Virus record (IMG/VR): IMGVR_UViG_3300049027_000046
Location: 1 to 28,674 of that record
Reading direction: 5' to 3' (one strand)
Length of the DNA stretch: 28,674 bases
Origin: a virus
How positions within the stretch are numbered: position 1 is the first letter of the stretch; each line of letters starts with the position of its first letter. The notes beneath the pieces were generated by a model. The model ran no database searches. It saw only the letters and a program-made list of their open reading frames with translations, and was not told the DNA's origin. The position numbers were made by a program, and so were the translations under genes. Positions 9,312 to 16,113 of this stretch are shown in pieces.

Positions 9312-9348
9312 AAGCGGCTCGGTTCGCAAAGCCGAGCCGCTTTTCTTT
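9312..9348 (+). terminator. Rho-independent terminator after the coat gene
   Basis: AAGCGGCTCGG at 9312-9322 pairs perfectly with CCGAGCCGCTT at 9332-9342 (11 bp), with a 9-nt loop, followed by a T-rich run TTTTCTTT at 9341-9348. It lies 13 nt after the coat stop. Since only about 20 nt separate it from the next ribosome site and no promoter is visible there, downstream genes probably depend on readthrough, which would set coat above tail-gene expression. Confidence 0.9.
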
Positions 9349-9719: not shown

Positions 9720-10454
9720 ATGGGTACTCTGGTTTCGGAGATCGTGGTACAAGCGTTCCGTGAAGGCAACTACACGGCCGTTGGTGAAAGCACAACAGCG
9801 GAAGAAATGGCGGAAGCTGTGCCACGGCTCCGAAACCTGCTCTCTTCGCTGTTGGGTATCGAGCTCGGTGAGCAGTATCGCGATTGGTACGTGCCGCAGG
9901 AACACAACCCTGCAGCTCCGCTGCGCTATCCGCTGACGCCAACAGGCACTGGCGAAACAAGCAGCGAGCCGTGGGCATACCCGCCCGCAAATTCGCGGTT
10001 AGTGGTTAAGATAACCGACGCGAAAACGGTTTACTTCCCCGCATATCCGAACGATGGCGCGCGCATGGCGCTCATCGATACCGGATCCACAGGGGCCATT
10101 ACGTTGCACGGAAACGGCCGCCTAATCGAAGGTGTTGCATCGATGACGGCTGGCGGACCTGTAACGCAGTACAGCGGCAGGAAGTGGCTGTATCGAGCTG
10201 ATCTAGCTAACTGGATCCGCATTGATCAGCCGCTGACTTCAGCAAGCGAATTGCCGTTGCCGGAAGAGTTTGATGACCTACTCGTAACAGGGCTGGCTAT
10301 CCGACTCGCGCCGCGGTTTCAGGTTAAGGTGGATGAAGTCATCGGCGCTCGGTTTGAGGATATGCTTGGGCGGCTAAAGAAGCGCTACAAGCAGTCTGAA
10401 AAAATGCCGTCAGCACAAGAGCTGCGTCAGGTTTTCAGATCTGAAGGGATCTAG
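9720..10454 (+). CDS. tail accessory factor / head-tail adaptor (P22 gp4-like)
   Basis: 244 residues, ATG 9720, with GGGAG 9 nt upstream. The N-terminal helices (EIVVQAFREGNYTAVGESTT, EEMAEAVPRLRNLLSSLLG) and the C-terminal part (LPEEFDDLLVTGLAIRLAPR, then a basic helix MLGRLKKRYKQ) match P22 gp4-type adaptor proteins that bind below the portal and begin tail assembly. P22 gp4 has 166 residues; the extra length here is mainly a central beta-rich segment, about residues 85-170, with YPPANSRLVVKI, TVYFP and LHGNGRLIEG, seen in other podovirus gp4 relatives. The neighbours portal and gp10-like protein agree with this role. Confidence 0.85.
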   Translation: MGTLVSEIVVQAFREGNYTAVGESTTAEEMAEAVPRLRNLLSSLLGIELGEQYRDWYVPQEHNPAAPLRYPLTPTGTGETSSEPWAYPPANSRLVVKITDAKTVYFPAYPNDGARMALIDTGSTGAITLHGNGRLIEGVASMTAGGPVTQYSGRKWLYRADLANWIRIDQPLTSASELPLPEEFDDLLVTGLAIRLAPRFQVKVDEVIGARFEDMLGRLKKRYKQSEKMPSAQELRQVFRSEGI

Positions 10455-10457
10455 CCT

Positions 10458-11678
10458 ATGCCGAATATCCCGCTGGGAATTGGTGCGTACAACCGTCCGT
10501 ACGGCCGGCTGCCAGAGATTCGGATGGAAAACCGATTCTTTGAGCAGAATCCGGTTGGTGCGGAAAAGGTTGCGCTGCTATCGCGGCCGGGCTCGGATCT
10601 GTTCTTAGAAGTTGGCGACGGTCCGATACGCACCATGTTTTCGCAGCCCGGCGTCTTTAACGGCGATCTTTTCATCATCTCAGGGCAACAGCTCTACCGT
10701 CATGATGGCGCGGTTACAACGCCAATTACCGGTGTGATTTCAGGAACCGGCTTCCCGGTGATGACTGCGATTGCAATTCCGGATTGGGATGCTGTGTTTA
10801 TCACGAACGGTGTAACCTTGCAGTATTACGAAGGTGAAAGCCGCTCGACTAGCAAGCTGACTCGAACCGGTGCGATTGCTGCTAACGATGTGGTTGAGAT
10901 CGGCGGCACGTATTACAAGTTTGTGTCAGCGAACCTAGATGCCGGCCCGCCTGACGGCACTGCCGGCGCGCCGTGGTTGGTCAAGCTGGGAACCGATGAT
11001 AAAACGTCGCTGAGCAACCTAGCTGACGCGATCAATCTCACTGGCTTAGCCGGCACTACGTACAGCACTGCAGCTGACGCAAATCCGGATGTGCGCGCGT
11101 TTGGTTTGACCGAAACGGAATTCCAGATCCGCGCGCTGGTAGCGGGGGTAGGCGGTGACGCCATCACGACAACGGAAACCAGTGCAGGGCTTGCATGGAC
11201 CGGTGGAACACTCGATGGCGGTGGGGGACATGAGCTCAAACAAAGCGTGGTGCCTGACAACGTGCCGATTGTAGATCTCGCAACGCTCGCGAGTCACATC
11301 ATCTGCGTGCAAGGTCTGTCGCGTAAATTCTTCTGGATCCGGCCGGGTGAAGTGGACATTGATCCGCTGGACTTTTCGAGCGCTGAAGCTGAGCCGGATT
11401 ACATCGTTAACGTTGTTACGGTGGGCGATCAGTTTTGGCTCTTCGGTCAATCGAGCTCGGAAGTGTGGTACGCGTCCGGTGATGGCGACCAACCTTTTCT
11501 ACGCTCGCAAGGCCGCGCATTCTCGCAAGGCGTCATTCCCGGCACAGTGGCTAAGGTTCACGAAACAATCATCGTGACCGGGCAAGATGGTGTTGTTTAC
11601 AGGATCGCTGGCGGCCCTGAGCGTATTTCTCATCACGGCATTGAAGAGAAAATACGTCTGTGGCGCGAAACGTTGTAA
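10458..11678 (+). CDS. packaged-DNA stabilisation / tail-plug protein, gp10-like N-terminal part
   Basis: 406 residues, ATG 10458 with AGGGAT at 10446-10451. Residues 1-130 and 258-400 have the repeats of a beta-propeller-like gp10 protein: MFSQPGVFNGDLFIISGQQLYR, DFSSAEAEPDYI, DQFWLFGQSSSEVW, and a final IIVTGQDGVVYRIAGG with RISHHGIEE. Gp10 closes the portal channel below gp4 and keeps packaged DNA inside. Residues 136-256 look like a separate inserted domain (NDVVEIGGTYYKF, LSNLADAIN, ITTTETSAGLAWTGGTLDGG), a type I know from many phage tail proteins. The protein stops just where related proteins would continue into their C-terminal part; that part is found in two later genes. Whether the pieces assemble together is inference. 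Confidence 0.8.
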   Translation: MPNIPLGIGAYNRPYGRLPEIRMENRFFEQNPVGAEKVALLSRPGSDLFLEVGDGPIRTMFSQPGVFNGDLFIISGQQLYRHDGAVTTPITGVISGTGFPVMTAIAIPDWDAVFITNGVTLQYYEGESRSTSKLTRTGAIAANDVVEIGGTYYKFVSANLDAGPPDGTAGAPWLVKLGTDDKTSLSNLADAINLTGLAGTTYSTAADANPDVRAFGLTETEFQIRALVAGVGGDAITTTETSAGLAWTGGTLDGGGGHELKQSVVPDNVPIVDLATLASHIICVQGLSRKFFWIRPGEVDIDPLDFSSAEAEPDYIVNVVTVGDQFWLFGQSSSEVWYASGDGDQPFLRSQGRAFSQGVIPGTVAKVHETIIVTGQDGVVYRIAGGPERISHHGIEEKIRLWRETL

Positions 11679-11681
11679 CGT

Positions 11682-14582
11682 ATGCCAGCGCCGCTGACGC
11701 CCGCATCACTCGACGTTGTTATATCGGCGTACAACCTAGCTGCAGCTAGCTGGGCTGCATCGGTTGGCGCCGATACTTACACGCTCGAAGTTTATAACCC
11801 CACAACGACAGCATGGGCCGCGCTGTTATCTGGCATCGTGGCTACAGAAACCGACTGGGTGCCGCCCGCTGCAGTGCGCGGGCTTTCCGGTGTTAAGCTG
11901 CGTGTTAAAGCTGTCAACGTTGATGGCTCTTCCGGTTGGCGTGAAAGCGTTGAGTTTGTCGTACCTGAGTTTACCGGGCCAGCTCCCGTAGTTGAGCCGG
12001 GTATTGAGACAACGCTTGTTACGTGGGCTAGCAACGGCCGCGATGTGGAAGGTGAATACTGGGACGGTAACTTGTGGCGTACTTTGTTCGCTGCTCAGGC
12101 TGATGAGTTTTACGAGTGGGACACATCAAAGCGGAAAGGTGCCGCGGTCAAGGTGCGGCTGCGCGCGATTGCCGGCTTAGACGTTAGCAGCTGGGTTGAG
12201 AGCTCGGCTTTTGCTTTAACCGGTAAGTACAGCGGCAATCTGTGGCGCGCGCTTAAATCGTTCAGCTCGCTCGAAGTGCTGTACGAAATGAATGACGTTA
12301 GCGGGGATCCCGCGGATACATCTGGTAACGGCCGTGATGCAACCTTCTCAGCGATCAACAACTATCAACAGACTTCCATCATCACTAATCGGCCTAATGA
12401 TAAATCTGTTCGCAGAATCTGCATTCCGCCTTGCGGTTTCGGCTCTGCGATAGCTCAAACAGGTGGGGCTTGGTACAGCGATCTCATAACGCTGATCATG
12501 TGGATGGAGCAGATTGACCCTTACTCTGGCGGCTCTGCATCTGCGCATTTGCAGTTGGTGAATCGTGGCTACATCCATGGTTCTAACACAGGCGATCCGC
12601 GTAACCTTCGTTTGTTGGTTAACGGTTATTCTAGCGTAGATCTCGGACTGTGGCCGGCCGGTCCTGATCATATGCTGACTATGGTGATGCCGCCCGGCGT
12701 GGGCGCCCGCGTTGTTGCGTATTACGATGATGTGGTGAAGCACTCGGCTACGTACAACACAACGGCCGCGGTAGATCATCTGCGCCTTATCTCTACAGAA
12801 CAGCGTGAAGGCTATTTCCAAGGTGCTGCAGCGTTCAGTGAAGAGCTCGACGCACTGCAAGTCAGTTGGATCAAACAAGTATCAGTAAACCCGCCAAATG
12901 AACCGCCATCGCAGCCGGGTCCGTTCACTGCGCCGGTTTCGATGCAAACGTATGACAACAGCGTGCCGGTTACGTTCGGCGCATCTGTAGATCCTGAAGG
13001 CGGCGCGGTTACTTATCGGTTGGAATACTGGGATCCGAACGAAGAGACATGGAACGTCATCAGTGATGATTGGGATGCTGCGACGTGGGACACTAGCGAT
13101 ATCGTACAGGGCGATGGCTTTAAGCTGCGTGTAATTGCGCTCGATGAATACGAAGAGGAATCGACGCCGCGCGAGAGCGATCCTTTTAACATCCTGCACA
13201 CACATCCCGGTGCAACAAAGCCGACTGTGGATTTCGTTGGTGCCGGCGCGACTTACATCTATTTCGTGGCTTCTGATTTCGTGTCAACACATCCCGGTGC
13301 GACTGTGCGGCGCGCTCACTGGCGCTACGCAACAGATCAGGCGATGACCAACATCATCGTTTCATTTGTGACGGAAGGCCCGAATTGCCACGTAGGCGTT
13401 AACCCACGTGACATTAGTGCTGCAGGCGGCATTCAGCTTTTAGGGGCCGATGTGGATGTGTGGGCTGATATGCGCTATGAGGATAACGTTGGTGTGCTCG
13501 GAGCTCGCAGCACGCCCGTTCGCGGTCGTTCAGCCAAGATCCATTCGCCGGGCGCTCGACAGATTAAAATGCGTGACAGCTCGAACAATCAGCGGCATGG
13601 CGAGTATGGCATCATTTCCGGCACGGATGGATCCGCTGTAATGAATAATGGCGCAGGCGGCTCTGGCTTCCGGTTTCCCGGCGCGTATTTGAGGAATGCA
13701 CCGACAGGCGCAGCCGGCCGCTACGATGATCCTGACGCGTCTGAGCAGCTGCAGGGGCTAGTCCGAGTTGCGGCCAATGATCCTAAATCGCTCGGCTCTG
13801 CAGCGCGAGCTGATGGCTTGAAACGCACACTGGCTTACACTGCAGGAAACGGTGAAGCGTGCATTGTACCCGCTCGCGCGGTTTACTCCATCACGCCTGA
13901 GTTTGGTGTGTTAATCCGGCTTTTCATGCCGCGTGCGCTCACATACCCTAATCTGCGTTACGGTGTGTGTCAGCTGGGCGGCTACCTGCGCATCATCATG
14001 CAGAATCAAAGACTGTGGCTAGAAGGCTATCGGGGCTTCTACTACGGGTTTGATGCCGGCGCACCTTGTGGTACTAACCCCTACATTCAAGCGTTCGGTT
14101 ACGACTGGCGCCCGCGCGGCGGTGTTGCAATCGGTACAGTGCCGATTGGCGAGCTCTATACGCTGCGACTGTGGACTAAATCAACCGATGCGTATCCGGA
14201 TGGGCAGGCGGTAGCTGCAGGCGAAGCCGGCCGCACGCGCATTTATAATGGGTTGGGGCTAGACTCTGACATCTATCTCAACTTAGCTACCATTCAAACC
14301 GGCTTTACTTGGTCGGAGATTCGAGTGGGCCATTGCTGGCCGGGCACGCCAAACATGGCAGACGGCACGAACACATTTCCCGGCGCTATTGTTGAGCTCG
14401 CGGGCTGGCGTCATCCGGAAGTGCGGTATGACACGCCGGCTAAACCGTGGATCGCGGATCAGACAGACGCAGTAACAGCTGTTGAAGTTAAGAATTCGCC
14501 GGGGTTGATGTTCTACTATCGGTTGCAGGATCCTGATGCGCCGGAAGAGCCTGATATCTTTTTCGTGAATAGCGAAGCATGA
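11682..14582 (+). CDS. large modular virion protein with Fn3-like and LamG-like domains, probable tail fibre or appendage
   Basis: 966 residues, ATG 11682, 3 nt after the gp10-like stop. Reading in order: two Fn3-like beta domains (about 1-90 and 91-182; WAASVGADTYTLEVYN, VKLRVKAVN), a LamG/concanavalin-like domain (about 185-400; LYEMNDVSGDPADTSGNGRD), two more Fn3-like domains (about 405-505 and 508-610; VTYRLEYWDPNEETW, FKLRVIALD), and a second long LamG-like region (about 615-940; LYTLRLWTKST, YNGLGLDSDIYLNL). Such domains commonly bind carbohydrates or display on virion surfaces, so host recognition or surface adhesion is plausible. It lies between two parts of a gp10-like protein, an unusual position. 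It ends in an ATGA overlap with the next gene. Domain edges are estimates by eye. Confidence 0.8.
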   Translation: MPAPLTPASLDVVISAYNLAAASWAASVGADTYTLEVYNPTTTAWAALLSGIVATETDWVPPAAVRGLSGVKLRVKAVNVDGSSGWRESVEFVVPEFTGPAPVVEPGIETTLVTWASNGRDVEGEYWDGNLWRTLFAAQADEFYEWDTSKRKGAAVKVRLRAIAGLDVSSWVESSAFALTGKYSGNLWRALKSFSSLEVLYEMNDVSGDPADTSGNGRDATFSAINNYQQTSIITNRPNDKSVRRICIPPCGFGSAIAQTGGAWYSDLITLIMWMEQIDPYSGGSASAHLQLVNRGYIHGSNTGDPRNLRLLVNGYSSVDLGLWPAGPDHMLTMVMPPGVGARVVAYYDDVVKHSATYNTTAAVDHLRLISTEQREGYFQGAAAFSEELDALQVSWIKQVSVNPPNEPPSQPGPFTAPVSMQTYDNSVPVTFGASVDPEGGAVTYRLEYWDPNEETWNVISDDWDAATWDTSDIVQGDGFKLRVIALDEYEEESTPRESDPFNILHTHPGATKPTVDFVGAGATYIYFVASDFVSTHPGATVRRAHWRYATDQAMTNIIVSFVTEGPNCHVGVNPRDISAAGGIQLLGADVDVWADMRYEDNVGVLGARSTPVRGRSAKIHSPGARQIKMRDSSNNQRHGEYGIISGTDGSAVMNNGAGGSGFRFPGAYLRNAPTGAAGRYDDPDASEQLQGLVRVAANDPKSLGSAARADGLKRTLAYTAGNGEACIVPARAVYSITPEFGVLIRLFMPRALTYPNLRYGVCQLGGYLRIIMQNQRLWLEGYRGFYYGFDAGAPCGTNPYIQAFGYDWRPRGGVAIGTVPIGELYTLRLWTKSTDAYPDGQAVAAGEAGRTRIYNGLGLDSDIYLNLATIQTGFTWSEIRVGHCWPGTPNMADGTNTFPGAIVELAGWRHPEVRYDTPAKPWIADQTDAVTAVEVKNSPGLMFYYRLQDPDAPEEPDIFFVNSEA

Positions 14583-15562
14583 TTTTAACGTTTCGCTCAT
14601 CTGATTTTCTGTCGCTGTCGCTGAATAATGTGCCGCTCGATCCTACAACGTGGCAGGCTACACGTTGGGTTGTTTCGACGGATGAAACGTTCGCGCCTGA
14701 AAGTCTTTTGCTCGATACGTGGTTTTATGGCGATTACGCGGGCTCGCCTTGGACAACGGCGCAGGCGTTAGCGGACAACCCCAACATCAGCGCGCTGACG
14801 CTCGATGAGATAACGTTTGATGCCGGCGTGATTGTTGGTGAGCTCTACTTGCGGCTGTATCAGCGGGATAGTCTCGGCATCATCAGCGATCCCGGCGAAA
14901 CAACGTTAAGCAAAGCGCTGCGACCGCTCGAAAGAGCGTGGGCGTTTTTCTTCGATGGGCATGTGTTCTATGTGATGAATTACATCCTGCAGCCGTCGCT
15001 GATTTACGATGTGGCTACGCAGCAATGGTACGAGTGGTTTACCAACGGCGTTTCGTTGCTGGGCTCATCTGAACCGTACTGGAATATGTTTCGCGGAGTA
15101 GTCTGGAAAGGGCGCACGCTCGCAGCGGATCTAGGTGCACCGAAGATTTGGGAAGTCAGCAATTCCCCGCTCGATGAAGGGGAGAAGGCTATTAAACGCC
15201 TTGTAACCGGGTTTCAGGATCATCGCGGGACCGCTAGTGTTCGGCAGGGATCCATGCGCATCACAGCGCGGAAGGAAGATCCGGCAGAGTCGGCAACGCT
15301 CACAATGCGGTTCAGCGATGACGGTGGAAATACATGGAGCACTGAGCGCACGGTTGTCTTGGGCGCTAACAGCTATGCAAAGAACATCGAATTTCGTTCG
15401 CTGGGCCGCATTCGAGCGCCCGGCCGCATTTGGGAAATAAGTGACGTTGGCGGTTACGTAACAATCGCTGGCGCTGATGCTGATATCGAAGGCATCGAAG
15501 ATCTTGAAGAGGCTGAGTCGGCCGAAGAGCTCGAACCGGCAGCCGTAGAGGATGAGCTATGA
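14579..15562 (+). CDS. Fn3-like domain fused to gp10-like C-terminal part (copy 1)
   Basis: 327 residues, ATG 14579 in an ATGA overlap. Residues 1-112 look like another Fn3-type segment (WQATRWVVSTDETF, GELYLRLYQRDSLGIISDPG). From about residue 117 the protein resembles the C-terminal half of gp10-like tail-plug proteins: WAFFFDGHVFYVMN, YDVATQQWYEWFTNG, GVVWKGRTLAAD, LVTGFQ, RGTASVRQGSMRITA, RFSDDGGNTWS, FRSLGRIRAPGRIWEISD, GADADIEG. The last 20 residues are very acidic. The gp10-like part is homologous over about 190 residues to the next gene, so one is a duplicate. It probably sits in the short tail, either pairing with the 406-residue N-terminal part or carrying the fibre modules. Confidence 0.75.
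   Translation: MILTFRSSDFLSLSLNNVPLDPTTWQATRWVVSTDETFAPESLLLDTWFYGDYAGSPWTTAQALADNPNISALTLDEITFDAGVIVGELYLRLYQRDSLGIISDPGETTLSKALRPLERAWAFFFDGHVFYVMNYILQPSLIYDVATQQWYEWFTNGVSLLGSSEPYWNMFRGVVWKGRTLAADLGAPKIWEVSNSPLDEGEKAIKRLVTGFQDHRGTASVRQGSMRITARKEDPAESATLTMRFSDDGGNTWSTERTVVLGANSYAKNIEFRSLGRIRAPGRIWEISDVGGYVTIAGADADIEGIEDLEEAESAEELEPAAVEDEL
15395..15436 (+). repeat. direct repeat, copy 1 (39/42 identical to 16012-16053)
   Basis: This 42-nt stretch encodes RSLGRIRAPGRIWE and matches 16012-16053 with three differences by my reading. It is the best conserved DNA part of the duplicated gp10-like C-terminal module and a possible site for homologous recombination between the two copies. Confidence 0.8.
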
Positions 15563-16113
15563 GAGCGTGGGCATTCCAAATGGACGGACACATCTTCTAC
15601 GTGATGGATGATGTGAACGGTGACACCATGGTTTGCGATATGCGTACCGGTCAGTGGCATCACTGGTATAACGGCGCGGTTCCCGGCTTGTGGAACATGA
15701 AGGGCGGTGTGATGTGGAACGGCCGCGTAATAGCCGCTGATGCTGCGCTCGCGAAGATTTGGGAGATGGATCCTCACTCTATGCTCGATGAAGGTGTGAC
15801 GCAGATTAGCCGCGTTGTAACAGCGTTCCAGCCTGTTCGCGGTAAGGCAAGCACGCGTGTTGGATCTTTCCACGTGACTGCGAGTGTTGGAGCTCCTACC
15901 GCTGTTGATGCAGAAGTGCGGTTGCGTTTCAGCGATGATGAGGGGAATTCATGGAGTGTTACGCATGTGCGCGTGCTCGCGACTGGAAACTTTGCACAAC
16001 CGTTGCGCTATCGTTCGCTGGGCCGGCTTCGAGCTCCCGGCCGCATTTGGGAAGTGGCAGACACTGGCGGCTTGGTAGTGATTCAAGGCGCTGACGCGAA
16101 TTTAGAGGAATAG
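15559..16113 (+). CDS. gp10-like C-terminal part as a separate protein (copy 2)
   Basis: 184 residues, ATG 15559 overlapping the previous stop (ATGA). The whole protein aligns with residues 118-310 of the preceding one: WAFQMDGHIFYVMD, CDMRTGQWHHWYNG, GVMWNGRVIAAD, LDEGVTQISRVVTAFQPVRG, RLRFSDDEGNSWS, YRSLGRLRAPGRIWEVAD, GADANLEE. It begins exactly at the conserved RAWAF position, with no room for an N-terminal domain of its own, so it must rely on a partner such as the 406-residue gp10-like N-terminal protein. It keeps the LDEG and SDDEG motifs better than copy 1 and may be the ancestral C-terminal half. A tail-plug role is inferred from homology and order. Confidence 0.78.
   Translation: MRAWAFQMDGHIFYVMDDVNGDTMVCDMRTGQWHHWYNGAVPGLWNMKGGVMWNGRVIAADAALAKIWEMDPHSMLDEGVTQISRVVTAFQPVRGKASTRVGSFHVTASVGAPTAVDAEVRLRFSDDEGNSWSVTHVRVLATGNFAQPLRYRSLGRLRAPGRIWEVADTGGLVVIQGADANLEE
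16012..16053 (+). repeat. direct repeat, copy 2 (39/42 identical to 15395-15436)
   Basis: Second copy of the 42-nt segment, encoding RSLGRLRAPGRIWE. The two copies lie 617 nt apart in the same frame relative to their genes, so recombination between them would give one in-frame fusion gene with an Fn3 N-terminus and a copy-2 C-terminus. Confidence 0.8.

Follow-up and report, generated by a model that had tools for sequence, protein, structure and literature searches.

The stretch of DNA analyzed here, called the window, is a virus record of 28,674 bases that carries P22-type head genes (terminase, portal, scaffold, and coat), with Pfam matches at E values of 2e-154 for the portal and 2e-39 for the coat. 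Four plus-strand open reading frames lie where the first-pass annotation had placed them. The first, N406 (10458 to 11678; 406 amino acids), was recognized by PHROG 578, AF2, and Foldseek as the N-chain of a gp10-type nozzle, predicted to contribute the opening strands of the platform and five blades of the propeller. It is followed by F966 (11682 to 14582), an intervening protein of 966 amino acids, and by C327 (14579 to 15562; 327 amino acids), recognized by the same three methods as a nozzle C-chain with two predicted blades, a platform barrel, an N-terminal extension, and an acidic tail. The last gene, C184 (15559 to 16113; 184 amino acids), encodes a second C-chain that lacks the extension and was recognized by PHROG 578 and by its identity to C327.

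Gene order and translation signals

N406 adjoins a probable adaptor gene (9720 to 10454, plus strand; 244 amino acids) in a P22-type head-tail block with portal, coat, and scaffold upstream. This gene, directly upstream and outside the split itself, is an adaptor by position, occupying the place of P22 gp4; its protein matches PHROG 12985, of unknown function, and genes annotated as tail accessory factor or adaptor stand at the same place in X14, PAE2, Pam1, and Pan3. Only one gene is in the adaptor position, excluding a dual-adaptor arrangement, and the piece that is duplicated is gp10-like. A strong terminator-like stem-loop of 13 pairs (9312 to 9342) lies immediately 3' of the coat gene, upstream of the block from N406 to C184. 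Within the four-gene block, consensus scans found fewer promoter-like sites than in shuffled sequences and no more terminator-like sites than expected by chance.

The four genes are tightly packed. N406 stops at TAA and F966 begins one codon on in the same frame, and the starts of C327 and C184 overlap the preceding stop as ATGA. Calculated ribosome-site energies, a crude guide to the amount of protein made, were −5.1 for N406, −5.8 for C184, −1.5 for F966, and +0.3 for C327, so that N406 and C184 have a good ribosome site and F966 and C327 have none. Relatives usually have a site at both positions, with medians of −6.0 for the intervening gene and −4.0 for the C-gene.

The fiber-type label first given to F966 has one basis, weak Fn3 and Hoc-like matches around residues 402 to 503. 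The Pfam fn3 match (E = 0.016) fell below its cutoff, and the Hoc-like match in PHROG (residues 406 to 515) had an E value of 1e-6. F966 had no relative among phages, viral collections, or IMG/VR, and by BLAST it was unrelated to the intervening proteins of about 350 or 720 codons found in related viruses.

Two complementary parts of a nozzle protein

The proposal that a gp10-like protein is divided here between N- and C-terminal genes found strong support in matches to the family profile, in structure searches, and in relatives that keep the gene whole. N406 matched PHROG 578 (head closure Hc3, the P22 gp10 group) over profile positions 5 to 279 (E = 2e-33), residues 118 to 310 of C327 matched positions 289 to 476 (E = 2e-15), and residues 2 to 167 of C184 matched positions 290 to 453 (E = 2e-17). 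Because the matched stretches are distinct, the N- and C-pieces are complementary and do not overlap, and the C-part begins close to where the first-pass annotation had placed it, at about residue 117 of C327 and residue 2 of C184. On solved chains, the N-part profile reaches residue 256 of Pam1, 259 of Pan3, and 282 or 283 of P22 gp10, and the C-part profile covers residues 272 to 419 of Pam1 and 276 to 423 of Pan3, leaving a gap of about 15 residues between the two. The seam is crossed in one frame by the unsplit 467-residue protein of L009 (RRVSDHGIEERIRLNRDSFFGTGEKAWSFHFDGHFFYAL) and likewise in the single chains of Pam1, Pan3, X14, VvAW1, and others, as expected of relatives that continue past the end of N406. 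The end of N406 had been placed at RISHHGIEE, but nine more residues (KIRLWRETL) follow and are part of a predicted helix. All of the characterized PHROG 578 nozzle members that were found are single polypeptides. N and C are separate genes in the window and its clade, and the homology of the parts stands.

Single-chain nozzles are well known, and in characterized relatives the gp10-type nozzle is a hexameric ring that closes the DNA exit. The AF2 model of N406 had a mean pLDDT of 87, with residues 1 to 40 or so poorly predicted. The first 50 residues were undefined when N406 was modeled alone, as expected if the strands that partner them in the platform are in the C-chain. Strand order in the model corresponds to five blades and an end helix (residues 393 to 405), with an inserted domain of about 110 residues between blades 2 and 3 (residues 145 to 256; 10890 to 11225, plus strand) that is absent in L008, L009, Pam1, and Pan3. 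In the C327 model, residues 120 to 304 were good and formed two more blades followed by a barrel. Searches of solved structures with Foldseek, a check proposed with the first-pass annotation, returned Pan3, Pam1, P22 gp10, and Sf6 gp8 among the first matches for both models, and T7 gp12 as well for N406, each model holding only its own part of propeller and platform.

In the available text of the T7 and SU10 reports, the nozzle plan consists of seven blades and a platform of both chain ends (PMC6702177, PMC9509320); the T7 gp12 platform is formed from both termini (PMC6702177), and SU10 gp17 carries added domains between blades 2 and 3 (PMC9509320), the site of the N406 insert. T7 gp12 and SU10 gp17 differ from the window's nozzle in being single chains with additions made within the polypeptide, and the same text describes no break between blades 5 and 6 (PMC6702177, PMC9509320). 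Since the strand order of the models follows this seven-blade plan, the break sits between propeller blades 5 and 6, by a blade count taken from model strand order without superposition.

The domain inserted between blades 2 and 3 also occurs elsewhere. A one-ORF nozzle of 909 residues (L119:7850-10579) has three tandem copies of the domain that is single in N406. The domain also lies inside the intervening protein of L019:8669-10852 (hmm positions 167 to 256 at residues 544 to 633) and in many other intervening genes of about 720 codons, placing the same domain type in both neighbors.

The N-terminal extension of C327 (14579 to 14929, plus strand) spans about 117 residues. It had been taken for a fused Fn3-like domain, a claim that can be dropped: there was no Pfam match even at an E value of 10, and residues 1 to 96 had a pLDDT below 50. 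Nearly every split relative has an extension on its C-chain, usually of 60 to 130 residues and mostly made of repeats of about 20 residues; the extensions of the clade are unrelated to that of C327 but of similar length. In L026:3612-3845, for example, a unit of some 20 residues of the type xVSQAxVLAV is repeated about four times to make up the extension, a pattern typical of most split relatives, and no Pfam family passes its cutoff on extensions with repeats of this type.

Distribution of the split among related viruses

When IMG/VR was scanned with alignments of the N-parts and C-parts, about 155 related loci emerged, including several that were overlapping fragments of a single contig; the seeds were members of the split clade, and the counts therefore do not give a share among podoviruses. 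Besides the window, N and C were in separate genes, with a single C, at 137 loci. After near-copies were removed, 93 of the 109 representatives with a readable arrangement were split, including seven with the intervening part in frame with C or N, and 16 had one ORF. In nearly all split loci a single gene, either about 350 or about 720 codons long, occupies the seam, and in three (L023, L032, and L152) there is room for a further gene between N and C. The shorter and longer intervening genes are related to each other, and PHROG 2448 (unknown function), Laminin_G_3, or both were matched by those tested. The first-pass annotation would have abandoned the split if close relatives ended where N406 does and the later genes aligned to a different family. 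The N-parts of L005, L006, and L018 do stop at the same point as N406, but the split model stands because the later two genes align to gp10 and to no other family.

Split members were grouped in the tree (SH-aLRT 98) with one-ORF L009, L089, and L119 on long branches, and the P22-like isolates and other outgroups were all unsplit. A topology test did not reject a tree in which the split arose once and these three one-ORF members fall outside the split group (p-AU 0.155). Ten C-part loci were found in samples of 348 and 385 alphaproteobacterial genomes, all in one ORF with N, and an N-part was found on one 4-kb contig of an Erythrobacter MAG (L173). Queries of isolated phages with C-parts of the split clade returned only gp10s already found, and those of them that were read out are unsplit.

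A very improbable explanation is that the break is an artifact, with an assembly error, frameshift, stop-codon readthrough, or protein splicing restoring one chain. N406 and F966 do share a frame, one TAA and one codon apart, and fusion of an N-part to a PKD domain is known in L008. Against this, the same break occurs in the independent contigs L005, L006, and L007, with the next gene in another frame in L005 and L006, and the split recurs across the whole clade. Readthrough could not join N to C with F966 lying between them, C184 starts exactly at the seam and carries no additional sequence that splicing could remove, and C327 and C184 are too divergent for an assembly repeat. These explanations were set aside on the independent contigs, the clade-wide split, the position of F966, and the start of C184. 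We conclude that the split is no accident: it is ancient and has become fixed in a clade of uncultivated P22-like podoviruses.

Relatives close the seam in several other ways, which suggests that it tolerates additions: N is joined to C in L009, and the intervening protein is joined to C in L100, L114, L116, and L137. In L008:2663-4324 the N-part runs in frame past the seam into the PKD domain, and in L093:3252-4715 it also continues in frame beyond the seam.

Compared with P22 gp10/Sf6 gp8, Pam1 (7eeq), and Pan3 (9vyg), the window's protein has the same sequence family, predicted fold, and gene position after the adaptor. The known proteins are single chains of about 440 to 490 residues, whereas in the window the protein is divided into two chains whose genes are separated by a further gene, and the C-chain comes in two versions. 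The literature searched, which covered few subscription journals, yielded no description of a nozzle protein encoded in two separate genes. The N- and C-chains most likely rebuild one nozzle subunit. Of the seven propeller blades, five would come from the N-chain, together with the first strands of the platform, and the remaining two from the C-chain, together with the barrel of the platform. The two chains would assemble into one subunit with no peptide bond between them, and an unrelated gene lies at the seam. Pairwise distances correlated most strongly between N and C (0.86, versus 0.71 for N and the adaptor and 0.74 for N and the intervening protein), as expected for parts of one unit, and shared ancestry alone already raises the N-C value. 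Overall, we consider it likely that this gp10-type nozzle is made as two reassembling chains, by a split inherited across the clade, with the C-chain gene also duplicated in tandem in the window virus.

The nozzle protein keeps DNA inside the particle. According to a report that cites earlier work, few components of short-tailed phages are as well conserved (PMC6702177). If a clade-wide two-chain nozzle is real, blades 5 and 6 would not need to be covalently joined, the seam would be an entry point for surface-protein genes, and natural split variants would be available for experiments on gate assembly and opening.

A second C-chain and the possible composition of the ring

The alignment of C327 with C184 (49% identity, E = 4e-60) spans 188 residues, close to the 190 or so residues first estimated. 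Two C-parts were present only in the window; among 44 long records searched whole, the other 43 had exactly one, and in the closest relatives (L005, L006, L018, and L008) the contig stops before the C region. A single-protein scan of IMG/VR with C184 found no relative, and when C327 and C184 were used together to look for another virus with two C-parts, the only matches were distant relatives with an unsplit gene. In the C tree the two are nearest to each other, with an SH-aLRT of 92 that is not decisive. Because of this pairing, the sequences point to a tandem duplication, probably within the window's own lineage. Identity at codon positions 1, 2, and 3 is 62, 69, and 47%, as expected for constrained coding sequence. 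One stretch of 43 bases is 93% identical between the otherwise diverged genes (15394 to 15436 in C327 and 16011 to 16053 in C184), a possible case of gene conversion or strong conservation.

How the two C-chains would be used is addressed by several readings. We tentatively favor, at somewhat less than even chances, one in which N406 and C184 would form most ring subunits, and the scarcer C327, which has no ribosome site of its own and is coupled to F966, would take minority positions or lie beside the ring with its extension touching a neighboring protein. C184 is favored as the abundant partner of N406 by the ribosome-site energies, an indirect indication. Conversely, C327 might be the true ring partner and C184 a redundant or specialized extra copy outside the main ring. 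C327 is extended like the C-chain of nearly every split relative and the unextended C184 has no counterpart, but C184 keeps as many of the 47 family residues (34, versus 33 in C327), has the shorter branch (0.54 versus 0.68), and has the only good ribosome site of the pair, and we hold this arrangement to be rather unlikely.

Both C-chains could also occupy ring positions, giving a nozzle of mixed subunits. They share the domain, have similar counts of conserved residues, and as tandem sisters would both descend from a ring subunit; their 49% identity, however, leaves room for a binding surface to have been lost in one copy, and we regard a mixed ring as unlikely. Doubtful in a similar way is the fuller proposal that a ring with two kinds of C-chain, one extended, makes a sixfold gate of three polypeptides with fewer than six extended positions, and that, in the wider clade, division of the gate protein opened the seam to a surface-protein gene.

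A related doubling is known from phiGT1 and Bcep22-like phages, which carry dual tubeA paralogues (PMC10386132). There too a component of the short-tail ring is encoded in two neighboring copies, and a mixed ring is likewise at issue; in those phages the whole of tubeA was doubled by recombination of two lineages (PMC10386132), whereas in the window half of tubeB (gp10) was doubled within one lineage. In L009:1401-2862, two neighboring genes both match the window's probable adaptor and stand beside an unsplit gp10, an arrangement that recalls the dual tubeA of phiGT1.
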